DNA of 33,953 bases, from contig CADBRR010000092.1 in assembly GCA_902797145.1 (NCBI GenBank), positions 1-33,953 on the forward strand, in the 5' to 3' direction. The notes below the pieces were generated by a model. The model worked only from the letters and a program-made list of their open reading frames with translations, was not told the DNA's origin and ran no database searches. This document shows positions 159 to 31,588 of this stretch, in pieces (within the stretch, counting starts at the first letter, position 1; each line of letters begins with the position of its first letter). Both the position numbers and the translations under genes were made by a program. Origin of the DNA: an uncultured Eubacteriales bacterium (GTDB lineage: Bacteria > Bacillota > Clostridia > Christensenellales > CAG-138).

Positions 159-917
159 CTACTCAAACCGCCAGCCATTGCGTATTTTGAACTCATGAAC
201 CTGTAATTGATAATCTAATAAATTCTTGATTTCCATAACTTCTTTACTATCATATATTTCATTTTCTTGAACGATTACAACATATAGTTTTATAGTATCT
301 CGAATTATAAAATTATTTTTAACGCTCTCATCATATACATTTGCTAAAAATAATGCTTTTCCATTTTTGTCTGTATCAATATAAATTATTCTTATATCGT
401 GTTCAGTTGCAGATTTATTATAGTTTTTTATGTATTCTTCCGCACTTTTGGTAAGGCTTTGCGAGCAAATCCGTTTTGATGTTCCCTCATGAATATATTC
501 CCTTGCGGTCATTTTTCCATAATAGAGTGGTTCGTTCCAATCATTAATCTTTTTTAATTGTTCAACCTCTGAATCTTCAAAATTTGATTCAGTCTTTACT
601 ATGGCGCAAATATCCTCATAAAAATATGTGTCTTTATCATCAAAATGCTGACATATGCACAACGCATAGAAATATCTGTTATGCCCATCTTCATCATCGG
701 TCAAAACCGATGAAAACCTATATAAAAACAATATTCGCCCCTGATTATCTTCTTCAATAACCTTTGTTCTTGATGAAGATCCATAATCTCCGCCGAGTAC
801 GTTATGCGCAGCTACAGTGAACAATTCTTTATTATTTCCCTCATATTGTAGCGGATTACAGCCAACACAAATGAAGAGAATTGTTATAATACTTAGCCAA
901 GAAAAAAATTTTTTCAT
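159..917 (-). CDS. Predicted lipoprotein of unknown function
   Basis: A 252-residue protein that I do not recognise. The N-terminus is a lipoprotein signal: two lysines, a hydrophobic stretch, then C-V-G-C with the lipidated cysteine at residue 20, so the mature protein should sit on the outer face of the cytoplasmic membrane. The lipobox is slightly atypical because position -3 is Cys. The rest is a soluble, charged domain with many Asp, Glu, Lys and Tyr, no membrane segments and no repeat that I can see. The start is supported by AGAGG about 8 bases upstream of ATG. It is not part of an operon: 370 bases of non-coding DNA lie upstream and a palindrome lies downstream. Function cannot be stated; it is real by length, signal and ribosome binding site. 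Confidence 0.8.
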   Translation of the reverse strand: MKKFFSWLSIITILFICVGCNPLQYEGNNKELFTVAAHNVLGGDYGSSSRTKVIEEDNQGRILFLYRFSSVLTDDEDGHNRYFYALCICQHFDDKDTYFYEDICAIVKTESNFEDSEVEQLKKINDWNEPLYYGKMTAREYIHEGTSKRICSQSLTKSAEEYIKNYNKSATEHDIRIIYIDTDKNGKALFLANVYDESVKNNFIIRDTIKLYVVIVQENEIYDSKEVMEIKNLLDYQLQVHEFKIRNGWRFE

Positions 918-1287
918 TTTTCAAGCCTCTTTGTAAAAATTCCTATTGCAAATACATAAAGATTATGCTATAATAAACTCATATAATGATAACTTCATTG
1001 CATACATTATTACAGCGGCTCACCGTAACGGAACACATCAAAGTTTGCAGACCATAGATATATTCGTTGCAGTGGGCTATTCTTTTACTATTTCATTGTA
1101 ACCATCTCGCTTATACGATTAATTTGTAATTATGATTTAGATTATGTTTATATTTTACAATATATTTTCCCGGATGTAAATATATCTTTAATAACTTTAT
1201 GCAATTTCATAATTGGGCGACATAATTTTACCATCTAAAAAGCAGCAAACTTATTTATGTAAGCATACTGTCATTATTGCAATTAAA
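918..1287. other. 370-base intergenic region, no supported gene
   Basis: This AT-rich gap separates the orphan lipoprotein gene from the small metallopeptidase-like gene, both on the minus strand. No convincing protein gene is present. Near its left end there is a well-formed plus-strand promoter (see 946-974) with nothing obvious to transcribe. A 23-codon frame at 986-1057 starts only a few bases after the expected transcription start and has no ribosome binding site. The rest shows no strong hairpin apart from a small CCGT/ACGG palindrome near 1022-1031. Confidence 0.6.
946..974 (+). promoter_or_regulatory. Orphan sigma-A promoter
   Basis: TTGCAA (946-951), a 17-base spacer and TATAAT (969-974), with TG at -14/-15 giving an extended -10. 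This is among the best promoter matches in the window, yet it faces a stretch with no plus-strand gene and runs antisense towards the metallopeptidase and sbcC. It may drive a small RNA or be a remnant. Confidence 0.55.
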
Positions 1288-1752
1288 TTATCTATTTTTT
1301 ATTTTAATTTTGCTTTTATATTCATTATATTTTTGTTCCGCATCGAGTTCATACGAATAATTTTGACGCATAACGTTGCCAAGAACATCCGCCTCGTACT
1401 CCCACGGTTGTGAATAGTAACTGTTATACGGAACGCCGCCAAAGTACCCTTTAAGTGACGGGGCAGCAACGAACCGCACATATTTAAAAAATCCAAGTTT
1501 TTTATACTGCAAGTAATGCCCATATTCGTGCCTTAATGTTTCCTCCGCTTCACAACCTGAGCAAGGTTCACGCTTGCCCCAGAATATCATACCGAACGAA
1601 CACGCATTCATACGAAATGGAACTTTTAAAAACCTTACACCTTTATAATATGAAAACACATTGCAGGAAAGAGTTTTTGATTCATCATCACAGAGCTTAT
1701 CTGCATTGACCCTATCCTGCTTTATTTTTTCAAAAAAGCTTTTGAGCGACAT
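1288..1752 (-). CDS. Small HExxH zinc metallopeptidase-like protein
   Basis: A 154-residue protein with the zinc-binding helix H-E-Y-G-H at residues 75-79, directly followed by Y-L-Q. A downstream P-W-E-Y-E-A-D (116-122) could supply the third ligand, as in gluzincin-type families where E-x-x-A-D follows HExxH. No signal peptide and no clear membrane span are seen, so it is probably cytoplasmic. Cysteines cluster at 51, 64 and 67 (C-S-G-C). The gene begins 4 bases after the sbcC stop, with GAGGT about 9 bases before ATG, so it is the third gene of the sbcD-sbcC transcript. The fold assignment rests on the motif only; substrate and even activity are unknown. It may equally be a non-proteolytic zincin-like protein. 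Confidence 0.7.
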   Translation of the reverse strand: MSLKSFFEKIKQDRVNADKLCDDESKTLSCNVFSYYKGVRFLKVPFRMNACSFGMIFWGKREPCSGCEAEETLRHEYGHYLQYKKLGFFKYVRFVAAPSLKGYFGGVPYNSYYSQPWEYEADVLGNVMRQNYSYELDAEQKYNEYKSKIKIKNR

Positions 1753-1756
1753 AACA

Positions 1757-4528
1757 TCAAACCTCGATTTTTACCCTACTTGAACCATCTTTTTGTTTTG
1801 TAACAATCATCTTTTTGTCGATTTTATCTGCGAGTTCGGTTACATGGGAAATAATACCGACAAGCCTATTTTCATCTGACAAACCTTTTAAAGCCCTAAC
1901 TGCATGGTCGAGCGTTTCGTTATCGAGCGAACCGAAGCCCTCGTCAACAAACATAGTATCGAGTTGTATTCCGCCAGATGATGATTGAATTTCCTCAGAA
2001 AGTCCAAGCGCAAGCGATAACGATGCAATAAACGATTCACCGCCCGAAAGCGTTTTTACGCTTCTAACATCATTTGAGTTATTCGTATTGAAATGATCGA
2101 CAACGCACAAGTCAAGTCCTGATTTTACCTGCTTACTCTCTCCCGTTTCAGCTCGTTTAAGCTCATATCTTCCGCCCGACATTTTCAAAAACTGCTTATT
2201 GGCACGTGCAATTATTCTATCGAAATATGTTGACTGCACAAACGTTTCAAGCGTAACCTTTTCCCTTTCGCTAAGCTTACCCTTTGTTGTATCGTCAAGT
2301 GATTTTATATAAGAGTATCGTTTTGACGCAATTATCAATTCATTGAGGCTTTCTTTGATTTTTGCATACATATGGCTGTTAATCTCAATTTTTGAAGTCA
2401 AAGCTGATAATTTATCCTGCAATTGTCTTGTAACAGTTTCAAACTTTGTCTTATCGTTTCTAAGCTTTTCTACATCGACATCAGCGCTGTTTTTGACACT
2501 ATTTTCAAGCGTTGCGATACCAGCTTCTAACGTATGCACTTTTTCCTGTTCAGATTTAAGGCTTTTTTCAGCATTTTCGTATTCGCTGTTTATTTGCTTT
2601 TTCTTATTTTCAAGCTCGCTTAAACCTTTTAATGCTGCATTCTTATCTGAAAATTCTAAATTTGCTTTAAGTTTTTCGCACTCTTGCTTATACAAACTCA
2701 TCTTTTCAGATTCTGATGCTATCCCGTTTTTGATTTCATTGAGCTGCGCAGTCTTTGTTTCAATAAGGTTTCTAAGGTTCTCAATTTCCTTCAAATACTC
2801 TTCCCTTCTTTTCTCATCGTTTTCTTTATGAGGAATTGAACAGCTTAATGCCTTGACGATTTTATCACATTCATCCATCTGCTCGATTATCATTTTATTT
2901 ATAGAATTTAAATCGCCTTTAAGCTCATTTTCGCTGAATGTTTCTTTGAGTTTCTTTTCCTTTTCCTCATAAATTCCACGATATTTTGAAGCATTCTCGC
3001 TCGCCTTTATTGCATTATTTCGTTCGTTTTCAGCGATACTCTCTACTTCTTCGACTTTTTCAAGCGTTGGTGCATTTTCGTTTCTATGCGCAATTTCAGG
3101 ATGATGCAAGCTTCCGCAAACAGGGCATTTTTCACCCTCTACAAGATTTTGTGCAAGCGTTCCTGCTATCTCCATATTATAAATTTTTCTTAGCCTTATC
3201 GCCTCGCTCTGATATGCATCTGCACGCTTTTGTGTCCTGATATATACATCTTGTTTTGCATAACAATTGTGTTTAGATTCATTAAAAGATAATATATCGT
3301 TTTTAATTGATTTTAGTTTCTTTCTTCGCTCGATTTGCGTTGCCTTTTCATGCTCCATTCTAAGTTTTTCTTCTCCTGAGCCTGCAAGCATTTCTGCATT
3401 TTTTATGGCATTTTCAAGTTCACGCTTTTTTAAATCTATATCATTTTCAACTTTTTCTTTTTTGTTTGAGGATATAGCAAGGCTCTCGTTTAAAGATTCC
3501 ATTTCATTACGCTTTTTCTCATATTCGTCATAATCTGCAATTTTGCCTTTTATAATCGCTATTTGCTCCATTAGCTTATCAACGGATTTAAGATTTTCTT
3601 TTTTTAAATTGAAATCTAATTCGAGCATTTCACATTCGGGTTTTAAAGCTTCAAGTTCGATTTTTTTCTCAGCAATTTCATTCCTTGTTTTTTCTAATTC
3701 TTCCGCTATAGTAAGTGCTTTGTTTGCCTCGAACAGCTTTTTATCTATATCTTCACGCTCTTTATTTATAACTTTCCTTTCTTCAGAATCCTTTTCAATA
3801 AAATCCTTTATTTGTTCAATTTTATCGTAACAGTCTTCAAATCCTGTCATTGAAATCAATTCATTTTTAAAGCTATCATCACACGATAACCCATCAATAA
3901 ACGACCTTATATTACTATTTATATTATCGTATTTTGCTTTTTCTTCCTTTGTTTTTTCGGACAACATATCCTGGAAGCGGTTAAAAATATCAGTTTTGAA
4001 AATATCCCTGAAAATCTTTTGCCTTTCCTCTGTTTTCGCATTGAGAAGCCTTAAAAAATCGCCCTGTGCAATAAGCGCTATCTGTTTAAACTGAACAGCA
4101 TCCAATCCGATTATATCATTTATCTTTTCATCAGCGTTTTTGACACCGCTACATATAACAGTACCATCTGACAGCATAAGTGTAGCATCTGCATTTTTGC
4201 TTGTTACTCCGTTTCCCCTGCTTTTCTTTTTTTCATAACGAGGATTCCTTCTTATTATATATATTTTTCCTGCATAGTCGAATTTGAGTTCAACATATGT
4301 TTCAGTATTTTCGTCAGCATATTTTGAACGGAGCATACCTGCGTCCCTTTGTTCACCGCTTGCTTCGCCATACAGTGCAAAAGTTATCGCATCGAATATC
4401 GTTGTTTTGCCTGCGCCTGTATCGCCTGTTATTATATAAATTCCATGCGTGCCGAGTTTTTCAAAATCAATTATAGTTTCATTGCAATAAGGTCCGAAAC
4501 CCGAAATTTTAAGAGTAAGTGGTCTCAT
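1757..4528 (-). CDS. sbcC: Exonuclease SbcC, SMC-like ATPase subunit
   Basis: ATPase subunit of the SbcCD (Mre11-Rad50 type) nuclease, which opens hairpins and protein-blocked DNA ends during repair. The 923 residues show the full Rad50 layout: Walker A G-D-T-G-A-G-K-T-T at 35-43, a long charged coiled coil, the zinc-hook C-P-V-C at 468-471 in the middle, a second coiled coil, the ABC signature L-S-G-G-E-S at 827-832, Walker B ending V-D-E-G-F-G at 861-866 and the switch S-H-V near 894. It is somewhat shorter than the E. coli protein (1048 residues), through shorter coiled coils. ATG overlaps the sbcD stop by 4 bases, so the two are translationally coupled and made in one transcript. Confidence 0.97.
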   Translation of the reverse strand: MRPLTLKISGFGPYCNETIIDFEKLGTHGIYIITGDTGAGKTTIFDAITFALYGEASGEQRDAGMLRSKYADENTETYVELKFDYAGKIYIIRRNPRYEKKKSRGNGVTSKNADATLMLSDGTVICSGVKNADEKINDIIGLDAVQFKQIALIAQGDFLRLLNAKTEERQKIFRDIFKTDIFNRFQDMLSEKTKEEKAKYDNINSNIRSFIDGLSCDDSFKNELISMTGFEDCYDKIEQIKDFIEKDSEERKVINKEREDIDKKLFEANKALTIAEELEKTRNEIAEKKIELEALKPECEMLELDFNLKKENLKSVDKLMEQIAIIKGKIADYDEYEKKRNEMESLNESLAISSNKKEKVENDIDLKKRELENAIKNAEMLAGSGEEKLRMEHEKATQIERRKKLKSIKNDILSFNESKHNCYAKQDVYIRTQKRADAYQSEAIRLRKIYNMEIAGTLAQNLVEGEKCPVCGSLHHPEIAHRNENAPTLEKVEEVESIAENERNNAIKASENASKYRGIYEEKEKKLKETFSENELKGDLNSINKMIIEQMDECDKIVKALSCSIPHKENDEKRREEYLKEIENLRNLIETKTAQLNEIKNGIASESEKMSLYKQECEKLKANLEFSDKNAALKGLSELENKKKQINSEYENAEKSLKSEQEKVHTLEAGIATLENSVKNSADVDVEKLRNDKTKFETVTRQLQDKLSALTSKIEINSHMYAKIKESLNELIIASKRYSYIKSLDDTTKGKLSEREKVTLETFVQSTYFDRIIARANKQFLKMSGGRYELKRAETGESKQVKSGLDLCVVDHFNTNNSNDVRSVKTLSGGESFIASLSLALGLSEEIQSSSGGIQLDTMFVDEGFGSLDNETLDHAVRALKGLSDENRLVGIISHVTELADKIDKKMIVTKQKDGSSRVKIEV

Positions 4529-12044: not shown

Positions 12045-12529
12045 TGGCAAACAAGGAGATAAAAACAAATGCAATGCGTTTGCTCGAACAGGCAGGCATT
12101 AGTTACAAAACAGCTAAATATGATGTTGACGAATCGGATTTGAGCGGTGTTCATGCGGCGCAAGTTCTTGGAGTAGAAAGTGAGGTTGTGTTCAAGACGC
12201 TCGTTGCGAGAGGCGACAAACAGGGCATTAGTGTTTTTTGCATACCGGTTGACCAGGAGCTTGATTTAAAAAAATGCGCCTGCGTTACAGGCGACAAGAA
12301 GATAGAAATGCTTCATGTTAAGGATTTACTTGCAAACACAGGTTACATTCGTGGCGGTTGTTCGCCAATCGGCATGAAAAAGAGTTATCCGACATACATT
12401 GATGAAACAGCCCAGCTATTCGATGAAATTTACATAAGTGCCGGACAGCGTGGACATCAGATAATTATTGCGCCCGATGTTCTCGCTTCGTTCGTTCATG
12501 CAAGGTTCGTTGATTTGATAAAGATTTAG
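12041..12529 (+). CDS. ybaK: Cys-tRNA(Pro)/Cys-tRNA(Cys) deacylase, YbaK family
   Basis: Editing protein that hydrolyses cysteine mischarged on tRNA(Pro), acting in trans with prolyl-tRNA synthetase. The 162 residues match the YbaK/EbsC type of the YbaK/ProX domain: V-F-K-T-L-V with the conserved lysine near residue 52, then G-Y-I-R-G-G-C-S-P-I-G near 112-122 and the G-Q-R-G-H-Q end motif near 143-148. Two consecutive ATG codons (12041 and 12044) are possible starts; AAAGG lies 5 or 8 bases upstream. ATG 12041 overlaps the thiN stop. It closes the plus-strand group and is followed at once by a strong terminator. Confidence 0.93.
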   Translation: MMANKEIKTNAMRLLEQAGISYKTAKYDVDESDLSGVHAAQVLGVESEVVFKTLVARGDKQGISVFCIPVDQELDLKKCACVTGDKKIEMLHVKDLLANTGYIRGGCSPIGMKKSYPTYIDETAQLFDEIYISAGQRGHQIIIAPDVLASFVHARFVDLIKI

Positions 12530-12577
12530 GAGATGCTAAAAACACGTTTCATCGTGTTTTAACATCTCCCATTTTTT
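12529..12577 (+). terminator. Intrinsic terminator after ybaK
   Basis: A long stem of about 17 bp (12529-12546 with 12553-12569, one bulge) starts at the last base of the ybaK stop codon, and a T6 run follows at 12572-12577. The T-run overlaps the stop codon of the convergent gene. On the minus strand there is no T-run, so it serves mainly the plus strand. Confidence 0.92.
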
Positions 12578-14366
12578 AGTCGTCATCCGCTTCATTATCG
12601 AACACTTCTGAAACTTCTTCAAGCAATTTACGAATCTGCAAGTTCTGCGGACATACCTTTTCGCACTTACCGCATTTTATGCAATCGCCTGCTTTGCCGT
12701 TATTCTTCGTATGGACGCTATGATAATAATAGCTTGAGTTCCAATCCTTATGCTGCTTCTTTGCGTTCAAGCAAGCGAACAGGTCAGGAATGCTTATATG
12801 TTTAGGACATCCATCGACGCAATATCTGCACGCAGTACATGGTATCATATCCTGTGCCCTGAAAATTTCCTGAACAGCATTTACTGCTTTCATTTCCTTT
12901 TCATTAAGCGGTTCAAAATCCTTCATATAGCTTATATTATCCTGCATTTGTTCAAGGCTGCTCATTCCTGACAAAACCATCATCATATTATCAAAGCCTG
13001 CTGCAAACCTAATTGCATATGATGCGTAGCTCAAACCATTTCCGACTTCATCAAAAACTTTCTTTGCATCATCTGGAATATTTACGAGGCTTCCACCCTT
13101 TACAGGTTCCATAACTATTGTAGGCTTATTATGCTTTACGCACACTTCATAGCAAAGCTTACTCTGAACTGCTGCATCTAAATAATCCACATAATTGAAC
13201 TGAATCTGAACAGCTTCTATCTGCGGATATTCCGTCAATATTCTATCAAGTACATCAGCTTTATCGTGGAACGAAATTCCGAAATGCTTAATCTTGCCTT
13301 CGTTTTTAAGCTCCAACGCTGTTTCATAGGCTTTACAAGCTTTGAACTTTTCATAATTACGGGCATTCTGTGCGTGCATAAGATAAAAGTCAAAATATTC
13401 TACTCCGCACGCTTCAAGCTGACTTTCAAAGAATGGCCTTATATCTTCCTGTTTTGAAAAATAAGGGTCTGTCAGCTTATCGGTGAGCAAGAACTCTTCC
13501 CTATTATGTCGCTTCGATAGACATTCACGAATTGCAATCTCGCTCTTACCGCTAATATAGCCATGTGCAGTATCGAAATAATTGAAGCCATTATCGATAA
13601 ACATATCGACCATTTTTGAAAACTCATCGTAATCTACTTCTTTTCCGTTTTCGCCATCCTTCATCGGCAGTCGCATACAGCCGAATCCAAACTTGTTCTT
13701 AATCTCATCAAAAAATTTGTTCTTCATAGTTTTCTCCTTTTTAATAACAGCATTGAGTTTAATTAAATCCGCTTCATATATTTCCTTTAAAGCTCTATTA
13801 TAAATTATGCTCGCAGGATGATAAATCGGAAACCACAAATAGCTTATTCCGTCAATAGTTATTGCAATTTGTTTACCATGAAGTTCCCCGATTTTACTGC
13901 CTTTATGCGTTTTATCATTGGCAAGAGTCAAAATTGCTTCAAGCGGTGTATTGCCAAGCGTTACAATAATTTTCGGTTTTACCTCTAAAATCTCTATTTT
14001 CAGCGTTTGAATACCAGCTAAAAGTTCTGCTTTTGTTGGTGTTCTATTTGATACTGTTTTTGTTTTTTGCTTTACAGGTCGATATTTTACGGTATTTGTA
14101 ACAAAACCGTTTTTCCTTGAGATACCTGCCTTTTCAAGCAATTCGTCAAGCTGTTTCCCAGCTTTCCCGACAAAAGGTTTACCACGTTTTGCCTCTTCTG
14201 CCCCCGGCGCTTCGCCAATGAGCATAAATAGCGAGTCTACATTCCCTTCGCCGAAAACAGGATTTTCAAAATCGCCATCATATTTTTCATTCCCTTTTAG
14301 CTCAATTATTCTTTCAGCTTCGAGTTCATAGGCATTTGAGATTCTATCTCTGCGTTCATTTCGCAT
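12576..14366 (-). CDS. Uracil-DNA glycosylase-like / 4Fe-4S aldo-keto reductase fusion
   Basis: One open frame of 596 codons with two unrelated parts. Residues 1-210 resemble family-4 uracil-DNA glycosylases: V-F-G-E-G-N at 37-42, G-E-A-P-G at 51-55, P-F-V-G-K-A-G at 64-70, T-N-T-V-K-Y-R-P near 90-97 and Y-H-P-A-S near the end. The Fe-S cysteines of classical family 4 are absent, as in a known clostridial subgroup. Residues 214-596 are a complete aldo/keto reductase with N-Y-F-D-T-A-H-G-Y, then a C-terminal double ferredoxin motif: Cys 510, 513, 516, 520 and Cys 562, 565, 568, 572. Codon 214 is ATG with AAGGAG 6 bases before it, so the reductase may also be made alone. The frame starts on the last base of the PBP stop (TAATG). 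The fusion may be real or reflect a lost stop or a sequence error. Confidence 0.8.
   Translation of the reverse strand: MRNERRDRISNAYELEAERIIELKGNEKYDGDFENPVFGEGNVDSLFMLIGEAPGAEEAKRGKPFVGKAGKQLDELLEKAGISRKNGFVTNTVKYRPVKQKTKTVSNRTPTKAELLAGIQTLKIEILEVKPKIIVTLGNTPLEAILTLANDKTHKGSKIGELHGKQIAITIDGISYLWFPIYHPASIIYNRALKEIYEADLIKLNAVIKKEKTMKNKFFDEIKNKFGFGCMRLPMKDGENGKEVDYDEFSKMVDMFIDNGFNYFDTAHGYISGKSEIAIRECLSKRHNREEFLLTDKLTDPYFSKQEDIRPFFESQLEACGVEYFDFYLMHAQNARNYEKFKACKAYETALELKNEGKIKHFGISFHDKADVLDRILTEYPQIEAVQIQFNYVDYLDAAVQSKLCYEVCVKHNKPTIVMEPVKGGSLVNIPDDAKKVFDEVGNGLSYASYAIRFAAGFDNMMMVLSGMSSLEQMQDNISYMKDFEPLNEKEMKAVNAVQEIFRAQDMIPCTACRYCVDGCPKHISIPDLFACLNAKKQHKDWNSSYYYHSVHTKNNGKAGDCIKCGKCEKVCPQNLQIRKLLEEVSEVFDNEADDD
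13725..13738 (-). promoter_or_regulatory. Internal ribosome binding site and start of the reductase
   Basis: On the minus strand AGGAG (13734-13738) lies 6 bases before ATG (13725-13727), which is in frame inside the fused gene. It sits exactly where a free-standing aldo/keto reductase of this class would begin. This suggests recent joining of two genes, and probably two protein products. Confidence 0.7.
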
Positions 14367-17164
14367 TATGGTTCGTTCTCCCCTGGCGGATTTGTAGGTT
14401 CAGTAGGTGGCGGAGCTATCGGATAATCCTCAAGCGCCTTTTCATAATTAGCTTTTAATTCATCATAATATCTATTGAGCAAGCTTTCACTTCTAAAGCT
14501 TATCGAGAATTTCAGCCAATTGATATTCTTTTTAAGCAATTCCTTTGTTGTATTCGGCAAATTATGAACCTTTGACATATAATCTTCAACTTCGCTTATA
14601 AGCTTATTTGAACGCCTTACCATATCTTCAAACGTTTCTTTTTGTTCCTGCTTAGTATGAACAGGGCAGCGTGATTCTTCATCCGATGAATTATCGCCAT
14701 ATTCGCTAACAGGAATATCAGTAAATACTGCATTGGGGATAACCTGCAATATATATTTTTCTTCAAACTGCATATAGGGCGAACTGCTATTTATTAAAAC
14801 AACGCTCTTCGTTTCTTTTAATTCATCAGGGCAAAACTCCGATGCAGGTTTATTTGAAGATTTACAGATTGTAACAGTTGCGTGCATATCGCAAGTCTTA
14901 GTTGGAACGCTATCTTTATCAAACCAATCCTCAATCGGAGTATGTCCGCAAGCATCGTTTTCACAAGCTTCTGTTGCAAGCAAACCTGAAATCGAGCATA
15001 CACGGCGCTTTACAAGGCCATTTTCCTCTGGTGTACCATCTAATATCTGTTTATTTTCTAAATCAACGTGTATCTTTGACATAAATGCCTGCCACAACGG
15101 AGCTGCGCACTTTCCGCCCGTTGAACCGCTTACAAGCTTATTTGCTGGGTAATCATGACCTATCCATACAACTGCTGTATAATACGGCGTCATTCCTGCA
15201 AAATAAACGCTTGTATAGTCTGAATTTGTACCTGTTTTGCCTGCAACAGTCATACCTGTTATCTGAGCATTTGCACCAGTACCGCTTTTTACAGCTTCAG
15301 ATAGCATATCAACAAGCATATAACAAGTTGAACGTTTGAACACCGGTCTTCTCTCAGTAAGTGTTCTTCCATCTAATATAACGTTTCCTGCATCATCTAC
15401 AACCTTTGTAAACGATATTGGTTTTTTATATTCGCCGCCCGATGCTATTGTTGCATATGCGCCTGCCATTTCGATAGGTGTAATACCGCTTGTACCGAGC
15501 GCAAGACCCGGACCATCGGCATTAATTCTTGAACCTTCAATTCCAAGCGCTTCAAGATACCTTACCGAATTTTCTATTCCTACACGCTCGAACAGCGTTC
15601 TTGCAGCTACAACGTTGAGCGACTGAACTATACCTGTTCTTATGCTTGTAGGTCCTATATACCTTGTACTTCCTATTGCAGGATAACCTGTTCCGCCATA
15701 ACCCTGAATAGGTCCTTCCATATTCATTATAATGCTTGCAGGTGCAGAACCCATATCAAGCGCAGGGCCATATATTGCTAATGGCTTTATTGATGAACCG
15801 ACCATCATACTGCTTTGATATGCTCTATTCCATTCCTTTTTGCGTTCGGGCGATGTTCTACCGCCAATTATTGCCCTTAACTGACCTGTTGACTGGTCGA
15901 TAACTACTGCTGCTGCCTGTGGCTCTACTATTTCTATTGTCGTTCCGTCAGCGTTTGTTGTAACTTCAACTGCAGCATTAGGATTTTCAAGCTTCGGATA
16001 TTTATCCCACTCAGTTATTGTATCCTGTACAGTATGCTGTATTTCAGGGTCTACTGTTGTATAGATATGATAACCGCCTGTACGTATTTCGTTCTCTATT
16101 GCGTTTCTATTTGCCTGTGTATCGGGCAAATTCCTCGCTTCAAGCAAATGTGTTATAACATCATAAATTGCGTACTCAACAAAATATGGCATATCATAAA
16201 GCTGTTTCTGCTTTGAAACGGGAAGTATATTCACTTCTTCTTTCAATGCGCTTTCGTACTGTTGTTTTGTTATACAACCTGCCTGAAACATTCTTTTCAA
16301 AACGAGGTCTGTTCTCTCGTTTGTTATATTCATTTTATTCGTTCCATCAGCGTTTTTACGCTTATACATATTCGCTCTTGGATTAGTTTCATATGGTTTT
16401 TGAACCATACCTGCAAGCATTGCGCATTCCCTTATAGTAAGCTCCGATAGTTCCTTACCGAAATAGTCCTTTGCCGCTGTCTTTACGCCATAGTTTGATT
16501 CGCCAAGGAATACATCATTGAGATATGCTTCGAGTATCTGGTCTTTCGATATCGTTTCTTCAACTTCAAGCGCAAGGTAAAGTTCCTGAATTTTCCTTTT
16601 ATACGATTGCTCATTTGTCAAAATTTTATTTTTAACGAGCTGCTGCGTTAGCGTACTTCCGCCGTGAGCATTGCTGTTTGTAAGCGTTCCAACAACAGCC
16701 GAAACAAGCCTTTTATAGTCAACGCCATGATGCTTATAAAACCTTACATCTTCTACGGAAATAAGTGCATTAACGAGCATATCGGGTATTTCATCAATCG
16801 TTGCCCAATCCCTATACTCCATGCCTGCATATGTGGTTATGAGTTTTCCGTTCATATCATAAATGTACGAAGTTCTATCCGATTTTGTAAGCATACTTGC
16901 ATCGAGTTCGGGAACAGTATCCACATATGCTTTTGCAACGCCAAGCACGAGTCCCATTACTGCGCATCCGAGCAAGAACACAAGCGCAATAGTAGCTTTA
17001 ATAGTATTGAACACTATTTCAAGCGCAAACGGCTTTTTCTTTGTTGTCGGAACAAATAGCGGTTCTTCATCCTGTGAAGTTAGATTATGAAAAAGATTAT
17101 TTTCAGCTTTTCCGCTAATTTTATTCTTTATTTTTTCAAAAAATGTTTTAAGCTTTTCGCCCAT
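14366..17164 (-). CDS. Class A penicillin-binding protein (PBP1A type)
   Basis: Bifunctional enzyme that polymerises glycan strands and cross-links peptides outside the membrane. Of 932 residues, 1-50 are cytoplasmic and 51-79 form the anchor. The GT51 transglycosylase has catalytic Glu138 in I-S-V-E-D and G-G-S-T-L-T-Q-Q at 168-175. The transpeptidase has Ser457 in S-S-I-K, the S-L-N triad at 515-517 and K-T-G at 643-645. After the transpeptidase comes a long extension with Cys pairs (around R-R-V-C, T-E-A-C, C-D-M-H and E-F-C-P), a charged helical stretch and a Pro-rich tail; such extensions are common in clostridial PBPs. AAGGAG precedes the ATG. The fused glycosylase-reductase gene follows with a 1-base overlap. 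yunB is divergent. Confidence 0.95.
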   Translation of the reverse strand: MGEKLKTFFEKIKNKISGKAENNLFHNLTSQDEEPLFVPTTKKKPFALEIVFNTIKATIALVFLLGCAVMGLVLGVAKAYVDTVPELDASMLTKSDRTSYIYDMNGKLITTYAGMEYRDWATIDEIPDMLVNALISVEDVRFYKHHGVDYKRLVSAVVGTLTNSNAHGGSTLTQQLVKNKILTNEQSYKRKIQELYLALEVEETISKDQILEAYLNDVFLGESNYGVKTAAKDYFGKELSELTIRECAMLAGMVQKPYETNPRANMYKRKNADGTNKMNITNERTDLVLKRMFQAGCITKQQYESALKEEVNILPVSKQKQLYDMPYFVEYAIYDVITHLLEARNLPDTQANRNAIENEIRTGGYHIYTTVDPEIQHTVQDTITEWDKYPKLENPNAAVEVTTNADGTTIEIVEPQAAAVVIDQSTGQLRAIIGGRTSPERKKEWNRAYQSSMMVGSSIKPLAIYGPALDMGSAPASIIMNMEGPIQGYGGTGYPAIGSTRYIGPTSIRTGIVQSLNVVAARTLFERVGIENSVRYLEALGIEGSRINADGPGLALGTSGITPIEMAGAYATIASGGEYKKPISFTKVVDDAGNVILDGRTLTERRPVFKRSTCYMLVDMLSEAVKSGTGANAQITGMTVAGKTGTNSDYTSVYFAGMTPYYTAVVWIGHDYPANKLVSGSTGGKCAAPLWQAFMSKIHVDLENKQILDGTPEENGLVKRRVCSISGLLATEACENDACGHTPIEDWFDKDSVPTKTCDMHATVTICKSSNKPASEFCPDELKETKSVVLINSSSPYMQFEEKYILQVIPNAVFTDIPVSEYGDNSSDEESRCPVHTKQEQKETFEDMVRRSNKLISEVEDYMSKVHNLPNTTKELLKKNINWLKFSISFRSESLLNRYYDELKANYEKALEDYPIAPPPTEPTNPPGENEP

Positions 17165-17273: not shown

Positions 17274-17951
17274 GTGATAATTATTAAAGCGAAACGGATT
17301 TTTAAGAGGATAATTCATATATCAATTATAATATTTATATTAATTTTAATACTTATCATACTTTTTCTTATAATCATTAACAAAAATGCATCTGAAACGA
17401 TTGGCGTTTTATCACAAGCACGAATAAAATCGCTTGCCGCAAAGGCGATGAACGATGCGGTCCTTGAATCAATGGCTGACGATGAAACATATGCAAGCCT
17501 AATCGAGTTTAAAGACAACGGACAAAAAGTATATATGCTTCAAGCAAACACGAGAAGTATGAACATACTTGCAGCGGATTGTGCAGAGCTTGCTCAGGAA
17601 AAAATCAAGGATCTTGGTGAACAAGGCATTTCTGTTCCTATTGGAACGATAAGCGGCATAACATTCCTTGCAGGCAGAGGTCCGTCAATCAAGGCATATT
17701 TTACTCCGGCAGGAAGCGTTAAAAGCGAGTTTACTTCCGAATTTGTTTCTGCCGGAATAAACCAGACACTTCACCGAGTAAAAATAAGACTTACAGCCTC
17801 TGTAAATGTTGTTTTGCCCAATTATTCAGAAATTGTCAAGGTATCCACTGAAGCCTCTATCGCTGAAAGCATAATCGTTGGCGATGTGCCTCAATCATAC
17901 ACGAATGTTGCAAACGAAGATGATATGCTCAACTTCATACCATCTGATTAA
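17274..17951 (+). CDS. yunB: Sporulation protein YunB
   Basis: A 225-residue protein of the YunB family, a sporulation protein made in the mother cell in Bacillus, where it is needed for full spore formation; its molecular role is unknown. It has one N-terminal membrane anchor (about residues 14-36) and a domain outside or in the intermembrane space. Typical are A-R-I-K-S-L-A-A-K-A-M-N-D-A-V near 49-63, a hydrophobic G-T-I-S-G-I-T-F-L-A-G-R-G-P stretch near 123-136 and V-K-I-R-L-T-A-S-V-N-V-V-L-P near 168-181. The start is uncertain: the GTG at 17274 lies inside the GAGGTGAT ribosome binding site, so translation may begin at an AUU codon at 17280 or 17283. CATATAAT at 17240-17247 could be a sigma-E or sigma-A -10. 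Confidence 0.88.
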   Translation: MIIIKAKRIFKRIIHISIIIFILILILIILFLIIINKNASETIGVLSQARIKSLAAKAMNDAVLESMADDETYASLIEFKDNGQKVYMLQANTRSMNILAADCAELAQEKIKDLGEQGISVPIGTISGITFLAGRGPSIKAYFTPAGSVKSEFTSEFVSAGINQTLHRVKIRLTASVNVVLPNYSEIVKVSTEASIAESIIVGDVPQSYTNVANEDDMLNFIPSD

Positions 17952-18704: not shown

Positions 18705-19898
18705 TCAACCGACAAATACGACCTGAGTATCCTCAATCGCCTTATTTATCATTTCCGTAAAGTCTACAAGCTGTTCGCTTGCCCTCAAATCCTCAACCTT
18801 GGGTTTTGTAACAGGGTGTTGCGGAACAAATACGGTACAACAATCCTCATACGGAAGTATTGATGTTTCATAAGTGCCTATCTGCCTTGCGATAAGCATA
18901 ATATCGTCCTTATCAAATCCGATTAGCGGACGGAATACCGGCATAGTAACTGCATCATTAGTAACGCAGAGGCTTTCAAGTGTCTGGCTCGCAACCTGAC
19001 CGAGCGCTTCGCCTGTTATCAGTGCAAGCGCACCGTCTTTTTCTGCTATCATCTGTGCAATCTTCATCATAAGTCTGCGCATAATAACAGTTGTTTCCTT
19101 TGATGGACATTTTTCATATATTGCAAGCTGTATATCTGTGAACGGCACAAGATGAAGCTTAATAGGTCCTGAATATTCAGCCACTATCTTTGCAAGGTCT
19201 ACGACCTTATCCCTTGCTCTTTCGCTCGTATACGGATAACTGTAAAAATGAACTGCTGAAAGCTCAAGGCCTCTTTTTGCCATCATATATCCTGCAACAG
19301 GGCTATCAATTCCACCCGAAATGAGCAACGCTGCCCTTCCCGAACTGCCTGTCGGCATACCGCCAACGCCCTTTATTTCATCTGTATACATATATACTTT
19401 TTCCCTTATTTCTATGCCGACCTTAATTTCAGGTTCATGAACGTCAACATATATTTCAGGTATATTTTCGAGCAAGTAATGGCCAAGCTCCCTGCCAATA
19501 ACATCACTCTGCATAGGGAATCGCTTATCAGCACGCTTTGCAAAAACCTTAAATGATATTTTTTCTCTTCCATTGAGTTTATTTGCCACTGTTTTTTCAA
19601 CGAGCAACTTTGCGTTTTCGCAAATATCGTTCCATTCCTTTGACTCGGTTTCTACAGCAGGGCTTACTGAATGAACGCCGAAAACCTTTTTAACCTTTTC
19701 TGTTGCTTCTTCGATGTTCTGTTCATCGAGCCCTGCAACATATATTCTGCCCTGTTCACGAAGAACACGTGCATTAAACACCTTTACTGCCTTTTTAATA
19801 TTTTCTATGAGTTTTCCCTCAAAGAACGGTCTATTAAGACCTTTAAGATGTATTTCCGAATATCGTACAAGCAATATTCTGTTTCCTGTATTATTCAT
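18705..19898 (-). CDS. thiI: tRNA 4-thiouridine synthase ThiI
   Basis: Uses ATP and a persulfide sulfur to make 4-thiouridine at position 8 of tRNA, a near-UV sensor. The 397 residues show the N-terminal ferredoxin-like and THUMP domains (about 1-170), followed by the PP-loop adenylation site S-G-G-I-D-S-P at 194-200. The catalytic cysteine region is E-D-C-C at 351-354. The rhodanese domain of the E. coli protein is missing, as is normal in Firmicutes; sulfur is then delivered from a dedicated desulfurase, and one is encoded 27 bases upstream. GGAGGAAG precedes the ATG. It belongs to the nifS-thiI-lipoprotein operon. Confidence 0.96.
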   Translation of the reverse strand: MNNTGNRILLVRYSEIHLKGLNRPFFEGKLIENIKKAVKVFNARVLREQGRIYVAGLDEQNIEEATEKVKKVFGVHSVSPAVETESKEWNDICENAKLLVEKTVANKLNGREKISFKVFAKRADKRFPMQSDVIGRELGHYLLENIPEIYVDVHEPEIKVGIEIREKVYMYTDEIKGVGGMPTGSSGRAALLISGGIDSPVAGYMMAKRGLELSAVHFYSYPYTSERARDKVVDLAKIVAEYSGPIKLHLVPFTDIQLAIYEKCPSKETTVIMRRLMMKIAQMIAEKDGALALITGEALGQVASQTLESLCVTNDAVTMPVFRPLIGFDKDDIMLIARQIGTYETSILPYEDCCTVFVPQHPVTKPKVEDLRASEQLVDFTEMINKAIEDTQVVFVG

Positions 19899-19925: not shown

Positions 19926-21071
19926 TTATCTTCTCTTAAATCTTCTTAAAAATTCGACTTTCTCAGCAATAAACTGAGATGCTGTATCAATCTCTTCAAT
20001 CGTATTAAACGGGCTAAACGAAAATCTCAGTGCGCCTTCGAGCCTTGCGCCCTTTATACCCATCATTTCAAGAACTCTACTTCCGCCTTTTTTATGTGCA
20101 GAGCAAGCAGAACCTGTTGAAACATAAATCTGCTTTTCTTCGAGCGCATGAAGCAAAACTTCGCCTCGAACTCCTACAAAAGAAGCATTGAGGATATGCG
20201 GTGCGCCATTTATTCTATCGTCAAATTTAGGTCCATTTATATATACATCGGGTATCTGCATAAGATTCTTTGCAAGCCTTTCCTTGCAATTACGCATATT
20301 TTCTATAAGACCCTGCTGATTATTTCTATAAAATTCAAGCGCCTTGTCCATTGCCATTATTCCGGGCATATTGCTCGTGCCTGACCTAAGATTTTTCTCC
20401 TGCCCTCCGCCTGTCTGACCGCCTGCAAACTTAATGCCCTTTCTTACATAAAGTGCGCCTATGCCTTTAACGCCATGGAATTTATGACCACTTATAGAAT
20501 ACATATCCGCCTTGATTTTGTCAAACGGAAGTTTACAAAAAGCTTGAACACCATCACAATGGAACACAGCTTCCGGAGCTTTCCTCTTTATCATATCATA
20601 AATTCTGCCGATATCATTTATTGCGCCTGTTTCGTTATTCACGTGCATAATGCTTACGAACTGCACAGAATTATCGAGCAGTCTATCGAGCAGTTCAAGA
20701 TTAACTCTTCCGTCCTCATAAACGGGAATCGTCATTGCATTATATCCTTTGAGCGAACGAACAGTTTCGTACATTGACGGATGTTCAACCGAGCTTATTA
20801 TAACCTTACCCATTCCACGCTTTGCCTTGAGCGTTCCCATAAGCGCCATATTGTTGCTTTCAGTTCCGCCCGATGTATAGATTATTTCATCAGCTGTTGC
20901 GCCAAGCGCTTGCGCAAGATTTGTCCTTGCCCTGTTCATATCTCGTTCAGTATCAACTGACGGTGAATATGCGCTTGCAGGATTAAAAAACTTTTCTGTC
21001 ATATAATATGCTGCAACATCTGCTGCTTCTTTAAGCGTGCGTGTTGTAGCGCTGTTATCAAGATAAATCAT
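19926..21071 (-). CDS. nifS: Cysteine desulfurase (NifS/IscS family)
   Basis: PLP enzyme that takes sulfur from cysteine as a protein persulfide; its position before thiI says it feeds tRNA thiolation. In the 381-residue form the PLP-binding Lys197 lies in S-G-H-K-F-H-G, His97 in V-E-H-P-S, and the persulfide Cys323 in S-A-C-S-A on the mobile loop. An open frame extends 16 codons upstream, with ATG also at codon 15 of that frame, but GGAGA stands 6 bases before the ATG at 21071 and the family begins M-I-Y-L-D-N-S-A-T-T. No iscU follows, so it is probably not the main Fe-S assembly desulfurase. The promoter is at 21135-21163. Confidence 0.95.
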   Translation of the reverse strand: MIYLDNSATTRTLKEAADVAAYYMTEKFFNPASAYSPSVDTERDMNRARTNLAQALGATADEIIYTSGGTESNNMALMGTLKAKRGMGKVIISSVEHPSMYETVRSLKGYNAMTIPVYEDGRVNLELLDRLLDNSVQFVSIMHVNNETGAINDIGRIYDMIKRKAPEAVFHCDGVQAFCKLPFDKIKADMYSISGHKFHGVKGIGALYVRKGIKFAGGQTGGGQEKNLRSGTSNMPGIMAMDKALEFYRNNQQGLIENMRNCKERLAKNLMQIPDVYINGPKFDDRINGAPHILNASFVGVRGEVLLHALEEKQIYVSTGSACSAHKKGGSRVLEMMGIKGARLEGALRFSFSPFNTIEEIDTASQFIAEKVEFLRRFKRR

Positions 21072-21134
21072 AATCATTCTCCATAAAATATTTTTTATAT
21101 ATAATATTAATTCATTCAATTATATGGTTACTTT

Positions 21135-23832: not shown

Positions 23833-25713
23833 TTATCCGTTATATACAAACCACGCATATATCTTAAGGAGTCCTGTTTCTTCATCAATTCCGTCAGGGA
23901 ATCCATAAACTGCCTTTTTCTGACCTACTTCAAACGATGCTGTATCGTGATAGTATTCAATAAGCACTTCGTGACCGCCTGTTGTTTTAACCTTTATAAG
24001 CTTATACGGTGTTGATCTTATAATTTCAACAACTTCGCAATCAATCTTATAGCCCTGATTCTGATGCGGTTCAGACATTATATTTTCATATGTGTTATCG
24101 AACTTATATGCCGTCCTTGTATACGTATCCTTATTCGGCATATGCTCCATAAATATTATCTTTGTAGTAGTAACTCCATTGAGCGTTGACTCAATTGTTA
24201 CTGTATAAAGTCCGATTTCCGGAAGAACAGCCTTAAAGCTAAATCTACCCTCTGTGCTGTCAAATGTTGGAGTTCCTTCAAATGTAACACCGCTTATCTT
24301 AATTGTTGCGCCCTGTGGCATTGAACCTGTTACTGTCAAAGTATTATCCCAACCTGTGTTATCAGAACCATTAAGCTTTACGCTTTCATCAAGCTTTATT
24401 CCCGATGCGTTCTGTGAGTAATCTACCTGAACTTCTTTCCTTGCGATTGAATAGCCATTGAGCCTTCCCTCAATAATCAAAGTCTGTGCACCCATATCTG
24501 CAAACTGATATGTTCCTGAGAAATTGCCCTCTGAATCTACGCTTATTTCCTTATCATTCAAGAATACCTGTGCCGATGCGTTTCCAACTTTACCATTTAC
24601 ATCAACAATGCCAAACTCAGTTACTATTGCCATAACGCTCGGATTTACAACTTCGAGTTCAAGCTTCGGTATATCAATTGTAATTTCAGGCATTTCAACC
24701 TTTGTTTCCTTGCCCTCTGCATTTATAATCGTAATGTTCGGCGTTGTCTTGTACGTATCGCCATCTGTCGGCTGGTTGGGTATCCACAACTGTTCTGCTA
24801 TTCTGAATTTAACTACTCCATCTTGAACTGTTGCTTCCTGAACAGTTTCACCCTCGCTAAACCTTACAATGTTGCCATTCTTTGAATATATTTTAAGAAT
24901 ATAAGCCGGTTCACCGCTATCGAGTTGCGATTTTTCAACAGATGGCGTTCTTGTAACAACATTGCCTGTGAATGTATATCTTACAGCAGCTATAAAATCT
25001 CCGCCAAAGCTGCTTGCTGCAATTACAAAGAAAATTATAATCACGAGCACGAGCGCTGCAACAGAACCTATTATAACCTTAGGCATCATTGTATTGTTTC
25101 CACCAAAGCTATTAGAACGCTTTTTATAATTACTTCTGCGCCTATTTTCTATGCCGCCCATATTATTATTGGCTTTCATATTATTTGTTCTCGCTCTATC
25201 GGTTGTCCTTCGCTGCGAATTGCCCTGAGCATTATTTACATTCTTTTTGCGTACAGGCATCGTTGCTGATTCACGATTCATACGATTATCGTTATTCTTA
25301 TGAATACGTGGTTCTTGCCTTATCTTTTTTACAGGTTCTCTCATATATTCATCGTCTTCGTCATCATCGAAAAGGTCAAATTTGTCGTTACCTTTGAAGT
25401 TTGCATCATCTTCATCGTCATCAAAGTCAAAGTCAACATCTTCATCATCGATATCATCATCGTTATTATCCTTTGCAACATTGAGCCATGACGGTTTCTT
25501 TGCAAAGCTCCATTCAGGTCTTTGCGGTTTAGCATACCCTTCTTCACCATCATTCATTTCATCAATATATGCAAATTCATCTTCAACGTTTCTATCGTTG
25601 TTATCGTTTACTGCCGAGTTTTGCTCTTCGGCTATCGGAAGTGGTGATGCACAATTTTCACAATATTCGAGATAGTCTGCATTTTCCGTTCCGCATACGC
25701 TACACTTCTTCAT
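23833..25713 (-). CDS. Zinc-ribbon membrane protein with Ig-like domains
   Basis: A 626-residue single-pass protein in clear blocks. Residues 4-21 hold a zinc ribbon (Cys4, Cys7, Cys18, Cys21). Residues 30-125 are very acidic, with long Asp/Glu runs; 127-208 are basic and Asn/Arg-rich, both likely disordered. A membrane span follows at 212-234. The outer part (235-626) seems to carry two or three beta-rich Ig-like modules (about 325-430 and 440-520) and a final beta domain near 540-626. The N-terminal zinc ribbon is cytoplasmic by this layout. The family resembles zinc-ribbon proteins common in Firmicutes, but the combination has no known role. GGAGG precedes ATG, and a promoter lies at 25813-25821. 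Confidence 0.82.
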   Translation of the reverse strand: MKKCSVCGTENADYLEYCENCASPLPIAEEQNSAVNDNNDRNVEDEFAYIDEMNDGEEGYAKPQRPEWSFAKKPSWLNVAKDNNDDDIDDEDVDFDFDDDEDDANFKGNDKFDLFDDDEDDEYMREPVKKIRQEPRIHKNNDNRMNRESATMPVRKKNVNNAQGNSQRRTTDRARTNNMKANNNMGGIENRRRSNYKKRSNSFGGNNTMMPKVIIGSVAALVLVIIIFFVIAASSFGGDFIAAVRYTFTGNVVTRTPSVEKSQLDSGEPAYILKIYSKNGNIVRFSEGETVQEATVQDGVVKFRIAEQLWIPNQPTDGDTYKTTPNITIINAEGKETKVEMPEITIDIPKLELEVVNPSVMAIVTEFGIVDVNGKVGNASAQVFLNDKEISVDSEGNFSGTYQFADMGAQTLIIEGRLNGYSIARKEVQVDYSQNASGIKLDESVKLNGSDNTGWDNTLTVTGSMPQGATIKISGVTFEGTPTFDSTEGRFSFKAVLPEIGLYTVTIESTLNGVTTTKIIFMEHMPNKDTYTRTAYKFDNTYENIMSEPHQNQGYKIDCEVVEIIRSTPYKLIKVKTTGGHEVLIEYYHDTASFEVGQKKAVYGFPDGIDEETGLLKIYAWFVYNG

Positions 25714-27020: not shown

Positions 27021-28901
27021 TTAAATTTCTTTTAAAAACTCAAAGAAATCAAGCCATTTATTAAGCATATACAGCGTTATTTCATATTTTTTGCACATCG
27101 CTTGTTTTACGCAGTATTGCTTTGTGGCATATTCAATAGATATAAGCTCGACAGCCGCAGTGCATGCCAACCAATTTTTTATATCTAAATCATCTATATC
27201 AACCCTTGCAGAAAAAGCCACCCACAAATCCATAGCAAATGTTACTGCATTTTTCATTTCTTCAGGTGACTTATTCAGTTGCTCGTTTTCCTGAAGATTG
27301 CCTATGCTTATATCTATCGCTTTTTTAAGCATTGGATTGAGTTTTTCCATATCAAAGTCAAACTTGCTGACTTTTCCCTCGACTATCTGATCCGCTATCA
27401 ATGCAAGGTATGGTTCATCAGCATCCATTTTTTTGAGCAATGGGAATATACTGTTCTTAATTTCCGAATCGTATTCAGGGTTTAAAAGAACTTCCCTAAG
27501 TATAATCTCTGCCCTTTTATCGCCTATATCGCAAAGCAATTCAAATGCTGCTTGCCTTATTCCTGTATCCTGAAGCGTTAGCGACCATCTCATAAGCGTT
27601 TCAAATTCATCGCTTTCGTTCCATTTATCAACAAGTTCATCATGTGAATTTAAATCAAAGCTTGCAATTCTATTAAGCCTTGAAACTATTTCCGTATACG
27701 GAACCTGATAGTTCATTATCGACATTCCGTCTTCTATTATTTTTCGTTTATTGCCTTCTAACGCATCCCTACATATATTTCTATAATATCTTGCAATAGA
27801 ATCGAACTCATCCATCTTCAGAATTACATCATAGCATTCTAACGCATCTTCGTAATTGCCAAGCTCGAAGTTACAAATGCCTGCTGTATGCAGAAAAACA
27901 CTTTCATACGGCACTTCATCGAGCATACTATATACTATGTTCCTTGCACGGGTAAATTCTTTTACATCGGCAAACGCTATTGCAATTTTATTTTTATCAC
28001 CAATATACGCATTCTTTGCCATTTCATCTAATTTTTTGAGTTGCTTTTCAAGCTTATCTTTAAAATTGAGTTTATAATAGCACAACAATGCATTACAATG
28101 CGCAGTTATATCAAACGCATCATCTTTTATTGCACTTGACGCATATTTGAGCGCATTCTCGTAATTTCCATTATTGTATTCTATAAATGCAAGCGTATCT
28201 TTAAATATTGTAACATCGTATCTATCAGATGCTATCAACAGCATTTCAATTGCTTCATTTATCCTGCCATCAGAAATTAAATACTGAGCTTTTTCGAGTA
28301 TTTCCTGTATATCTGAGTTTGTTGCCTTCGCAATACTGCTTATATTGACTTTCTTCGTTTCTTTTTGCTGTTCAGCAGCGTTTGCTTTCGCTTTCATTTT
28401 TTTATCGAAACCAAACTCGACAACTTTCCCGTCATACTTTGCTTTTTTCGTATGCTCTACACCATTATCTGCTGATTTATCTTCGTATTCCATATCATCG
28501 AGGAAATCGAGCATATCGAGTGCTTCAGGAACATATTTCCCGTTCGGATTCTTATCTACATATTTTTTAAGATTAGTTTTTGCGTTTTGCGCTTGTTCAA
28601 GCCCGAAAAAGTTACAGCCCAGCCCGAATAGCTCTTCGCCATTATCCTTATCCTTCTCACAATATATAAGCAAAACAGCATTTGATTCATAAAACTTATT
28701 TATTGAAGTCAAAACCTCTGCGAGCGCAAGTGCGCATTTTTTATTTTTATAATCTAAACGTAGTCCCCTTTTATAATTGAAAATCGCTTCGGGAATATCG
28801 CCGTTATCAAACGCATTCGTCCCACGCCTGAGATAGAAATCGGAATTTCTTTTAAAAGAAATCACTTTACCATCGTTCTTATCTTTCTTAATTTGTTTCA
28901 T
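27021..28901 (-). CDS. Tetratricopeptide repeat protein
   Basis: A 626-residue soluble protein without signal peptide, made of helical repeats. TPR-like units are visible near residues 25-60 (A-F-D-N-G-D-I-P-E-A-I-F-N-Y-K-R-G), 200-260 (I-N-E-A-I-E-M-L and N-Y-E-N-A-L-K-Y-A) and 330-360 (F-E-L-G-N-Y-E-D-A-L-E-C-Y). A charged linker lies at about 135-190, and the last 250 residues are helical with no clear repeat. TPRs mediate protein-protein contacts; the partner is unknown. GGAG precedes the ATG by 7 bases. The gene lies between hslO and the rRNA methyltransferase in one operon, which suggests a link to protein or ribosome quality control. Confidence 0.85.
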   Translation of the reverse strand: MKQIKKDKNDGKVISFKRNSDFYLRRGTNAFDNGDIPEAIFNYKRGLRLDYKNKKCALALAEVLTSINKFYESNAVLLIYCEKDKDNGEELFGLGCNFFGLEQAQNAKTNLKKYVDKNPNGKYVPEALDMLDFLDDMEYEDKSADNGVEHTKKAKYDGKVVEFGFDKKMKAKANAAEQQKETKKVNISSIAKATNSDIQEILEKAQYLISDGRINEAIEMLLIASDRYDVTIFKDTLAFIEYNNGNYENALKYASSAIKDDAFDITAHCNALLCYYKLNFKDKLEKQLKKLDEMAKNAYIGDKNKIAIAFADVKEFTRARNIVYSMLDEVPYESVFLHTAGICNFELGNYEDALECYDVILKMDEFDSIARYYRNICRDALEGNKRKIIEDGMSIMNYQVPYTEIVSRLNRIASFDLNSHDELVDKWNESDEFETLMRWSLTLQDTGIRQAAFELLCDIGDKRAEIILREVLLNPEYDSEIKNSIFPLLKKMDADEPYLALIADQIVEGKVSKFDFDMEKLNPMLKKAIDISIGNLQENEQLNKSPEEMKNAVTFAMDLWVAFSARVDIDDLDIKNWLACTAAVELISIEYATKQYCVKQAMCKKYEITLYMLNKWLDFFEFLKEI

Positions 28902-31512: not shown

Positions 31513-31547
31513 TCACATTTCGACTTTAAATATTTTTCAAAATGTGA
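31513..31547. promoter_or_regulatory. Inverted repeat over the transketolase promoter
   Basis: TCACATTT (31513-31520) and AAATGTGA (31540-31547) are perfect 8-base arms 19 bases apart. The right arm covers the likely -10 element of the transketolase gene (TGTGATAAT, 31543-31551, extended -10). A dimeric regulator here would block the promoter; which one is unknown. Confidence 0.45.
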
Positions 31548-31588
31548 TAATCTATATATGTAAATTTCCTGTCTTAGGAGGACGTACA

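Follow-up and report, generated by a model that had tools for sequence, protein, structure and literature searches.

A single open reading frame in the window (the whole 33,953-nucleotide stretch analysed here) encodes a uracil-DNA glycosylase (UDG) followed by an aldo/keto reductase (AKR), which raises the question of whether the two form a selected two-domain enzyme or were joined by an accident of gene order. The frame was open throughout its 596 codons, as an earlier sequence-only reading had reported without giving the strand, which is the minus strand (14366–12576). Because no stop codon separates UDG and AKR, they were read as a single protein. Pfam matches to this protein were UDG at residues 38–194 (E 3.6e-29) and Aldo_ket_red at residues 227–499 (E 2.8e-42), with 4Fe–4S domains following at approximately 508–582. 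Among PDB sequences, the first half matched family-4 UDGs and UdgX and the second half matched AKRs. The UDG portion was intact from residue 1 to ~208, and the linker between the domains is probably short (about 15–20 residues). The evidence makes it likely that UDG–AKR is a lineage-specific, probably recent, operon-type stop-loss fusion, which would yield two products and leave each domain with its activity. It looks like a recent gene-order accident and not a new system. Features of the locus are given in Table 1.

Table 1. Features of the UDG–AKR locus in window coordinates
Feature	Position	Strand	Basis
Fused open reading frame UDG–AKR, 596 aa	12576..14366	-	Frame and domain searches
Family-4-like UDG half, residues 1–213, without Fe–S cysteines	13728..14366	-	Pfam/TIGR profiles, motifs
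AKR half, residues 214–596, with C-terminal 2x[4Fe–4S] ferredoxin-type motifs	12576..13727	-	Pfam, motifs
AKR leader AAAAAGGAGAAAACT, AGGAG plus 6-base spacer to ATG, read as KKEKT in the fusion	13728..13742	-	Sequence, alignment to relatives
PBP1A-type penicillin-binding protein, directly upstream of UDG	14366..17164	-	Conserved pair in relatives
yunB, divergent	17274..17951	+	YunB/PBP1A/UDG order kept in many relatives
Possible terminator (inverted repeat with a run of T on its + side) where the ends of ybaK (+) and AKR (-) converge	12526..12572		By eye

Motif A of family 4 UDGs is defined as GE(A/G)PG (PMC10359453), and the UDG half has GEAPG at residues 51–55, in common with the UDGs of Thermus (UDGa, 1ui0), Thermotoga (TM0511) and Sulfolobus tokodaii (4zbx). 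Its other motifs were VTNTVK (89–94), SNRTP (106–110) and YHPASIIYN (182–190), and its TIGR00758 score of 128.2 bits exceeded the curated cut-off of 125.3. Sequence alignment located the R-loop Asn (N89 of Thermus UDG) in SNRTP and the motif B His in YHPAS (182–186). The F of KPFVG and the N of TN.VK aligned with F55 and N82, the uracil-contact residues of S. tokodaii UDG (PMC11078745), and HPA...YN was also as in that enzyme (Y170). The UDG half differed from the known family 4 enzymes, however, in lacking all four [4Fe–4S]-binding cysteines (there were no cysteines in residues 1–213), in having several added residues ahead of SNRTP and in lacking the Arg that ends motif B. Membership of UdgX was not indicated, with GEAPG and SNRTP in place of the GEQPG motif A and KRRIH R-loop and a TIGR03914 score of 98 bits against a cut-off of 189.95. 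The UDG half is family-4-like and not a canonical Fe–S family-4 UDG, a label chosen because the [4Fe–4S] cluster that defines canonical members is absent. It probably excises uracil or a related base.

Canonical family-4 UDGs carry a redox-active [4Fe–4S] cluster (PMC9266487). The sequence-only reading had noted a glycosylase without the Fe–S cysteines; the observation stands, and it extends to all of the UDG relatives compared by alignment (29 of 29). Loss of the cysteines driven by the fusion was thus ruled out, and their absence characterises the UDG clade as a whole, independently of the fusion. The 29 loci (L007–L035), together with window positions 13728–14366, represent an Fe–S-free family-4-like clade usually found directly behind PBP1A, and the genomes of this clade mostly encode a second, more distant UDG as well. 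That of the source genome (L004) is located on another contig and has four cysteines (in CQDCQLC, VKCRPP and ALAC). The retention of an Fe–S-free clade beside PBP1A, alongside a canonical Fe–S paralogue, is a more general observation than the fusion and may merit a study of its own.

The AKR half would be 383 aa long if begun at its own ATG and scored 145.2 bits against PF00248 (cut-off 24). The eight ferredoxin-type cysteines counted in the sequence-only reading were confirmed as two CxxCxxCxxxC motifs (C510/513/516/520 and C562/565/568/572). D265, Y270, K297 and H331, placed by motif position, form the putative AKR catalytic tetrad. Homologues with 63–69 % identity were free proteins of ~380 aa, from several families and located on other contigs or at a distance. 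These free AKRs with C-terminal 4Fe–4S clusters are presumably of the COG1453 type (Pfam PF00248 plus Fer4). They have the eight cysteines and the putative D/Y/K/H tetrad in common with the AKR half, from which they differ in that its start codon sits within a longer frame. The AKR half probably reduces carbonyls with NAD(P)H and ferredoxin-type clusters. A quick tree, weakly supported, placed it with AKRs of another family (L086 and L089, support 0.75) and apart from most AKRs of its own family; this placement is compatible with acquisition of the AKR but is no proof of it. Against it, the AKR is close in base composition to the remainder of the window (GC 0.39, GC3 0.40).

A match to the UDG half was found in 47 of 103 family genomes, about 40 of which had a close homologue. 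Identity of the UDG half to family relatives was 45–56 %, and the close homologues were mostly free proteins of ~206–230 aa, with 55 % for the best match in the family search. The joining itself was sought in order, class and phylum samples comprising about 1,200 distinct genomes, among which the source genus was represented by one genome. No other match in these genomes spanned residues 1–596. The two halves, which the sequence-only reading had described as normally separate proteins, were separate in all of the other genomes searched. Homologues with the same joining, which it had proposed seeking, numbered zero in these genomes, and a conserved fusion was rejected. Other AKR matches with long frames or partial upstream alignment contained no UDG once fetched and were mostly free AKRs or stop-poor upstream sequence, with one AKR–MenD frame. 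No UDG–AKR fusion was found in the open-access literature searched. Because the joining is absent from all other genomes searched, there is no evidence for a selected joint function of UDG–AKR.

Upstream of the fusion, the TAA stop of PBP1A and the ATG of UDG share one base (TAATG), and the three genes are therefore tightly packed. PBP1A was directly upstream of UDG in 20 of 29 fetched family loci, and the YunB/PBP1A–UDG order of the window recurred in wider stretches from relatives. None of the genes downstream of UDG in the fetched stretches matched the downstream genes of the window. As UDG and AKR are not neighbours in relatives, their adjacency itself appears to be new in the source lineage. 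The inverted repeat beyond the AKR end (Table 1) was missing from the output of a consensus scan. Elsewhere in the window, two pairs of neighbouring minus-strand ORFs were of equal length, and each pair possibly consists of duplicates (626/626 aa, 23833–25713 and 27021–28901; 397/397 aa, 18705–19898 and 19926–21119).

The start codon of the AKR (13727–13725, minus strand) is preceded by AAAAAGGAGAAAACT. Both the AGGAG six bases before this ATG and the TAA stops in the other frames just upstream, the latter checked by eye, were as the sequence-only reading had described, and the UDG frame is open. Across 27 window genes, AGGAG or GGAGG at 3–10 bases preceded 2 of 279 in-frame internal ATGs, namely the AKR start and an ATG at codon 16 of the 31544 ORF. 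As the motif is so rare, and the other occurrence may itself be a true start, the AGGAG before the AKR ATG is best read as marking a real gene start. The second ORF (31544–33565, plus strand) is listed with a GTG start that may be wrong, its in-frame ATG at codon 16 having AGGAG at 8 bases. Shine–Dalgarno-like leaders were present in 47 of 49 AKR homologues, as counted by a script whose choice of start favours such sequences; examples are GAAGGAGAGAACTATG (L052) and AAGGAGAAAAAACTATG (L078). The UDG C-termini of relatives differ in length, and two of them, ..LNALLKER* and ..LNVLIKER*, aligned with ..LNAVIKKE-KT-M of the window and thus ended at the AKR leader. The KKEKT codons are the AKR Shine–Dalgarno sequence and spacer, and the alignment would place the lost UDG stop inside this leader. 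The UDG ends of relatives and the AKR-type leaders therefore indicate that UDG and AKR were joined whole, with the leader of the AKR between them and only a stop missing. A promoter for the AKR was also sought. The best minus-strand match (TTATCA-16-TATAAT, 13824–13797) was located some 70 bases ahead of the AKR start, inside the codons for UDG motif B (IYN), and an own promoter was rejected since matches were no commoner than in shuffled sequence (18 vs 15±3.5).

The sequence-only reading had proposed that two neighbouring genes fused when the first lost its stop. With the reductase start retained, this account agrees best with the UDG ends and AKR leaders, but the genes are not adjacent in relatives. 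An additional step probably came first, in which an AKR gene, bringing its own ribosome binding site, was placed directly behind the native PBP1A–UDG pair. Loss of the UDG stop codon would then have let the UDG frame run in phase through the AKR Shine–Dalgarno sequence and into the AKR. Two products would most likely be translated, namely a UDG–AKR fusion of ~67 kDa and a free reductase of ~43 kDa begun at the internal start. The UDG and AKR domains would probably each keep their own activity.

A base error in the assembly could instead hide a UDG stop near the AKR leader, in which case the operon would hold UDG and AKR as two neighbouring cistrons and the fusion would exist only in this assembly. 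A single miscalled base would be enough, since the few codons at which the UDG would normally end are also those of the AKR leader. The fusion is also known from one genome and from no other genome searched, and that genome is a single fragmented assembly (1.96 Mb in 162 contigs, 92 % complete, the window being contig C92). Against a base error, which is judged unlikely, the frame is clean and neither half is damaged. Mis-joining of the contig at this point is also unlikely, because the junction lies exactly between two complete genes and the PBP1A–UDG order is native.

In a variant of the stop-loss fusion, which is distinctly unlikely, the free reductase would be the sole product made in useful amounts. 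The fusion would then be poorly translated or degraded and UDG activity would be in the course of being lost, with the separate four-cysteine UDG as cover. The AKR's own Shine–Dalgarno sequence and the second, canonical family-4 UDG in the source genome are consistent with this, but the UDG half is undecayed, as shown by its identity to family relatives and its intact active-site motifs.

Selection for a two-domain enzyme, in which the Fe–S reductase works with or on the glycosylase, is very improbable. Motifs are retained in both halves, and the UDG clade lacks the cluster that is redox-active in canonical family-4 enzymes (PMC9266487). Against this, the arrangement is unique to one genome, the Fe–S-free UDG relatives are free proteins with no AKR alongside, and the AKR retains a leader for independent initiation. 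It is scarcely credible that the fusion gives the Fe–S-free UDG a new covalent redox module, with a two-[4Fe–4S] carbonyl reductase brought to uracil sites in DNA and an internal start supplying free reductase in a set ratio.

UDG–AKR is thus probably an ordinary lineage-specific stop-loss fusion. It provides a clean example of two unrelated genes merging into one frame with survival of the downstream start signal, and a caution that this one genome is no basis for linking UDG and AKR in function. The AKR–MenD frame, from another genome of the class (L097, G788:C5; minus strand, 729–3905), is a single frame of 1059 codons in which a homologous AKR reads through into the next gene, MenD, with a further C-terminal stretch. 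AGGAG is located 7 bases before its internal ATG. It differs from UDG–AKR in that the AKR comes first in the frame and is joined to MenD, and is an independent event of like kind with a different partner.
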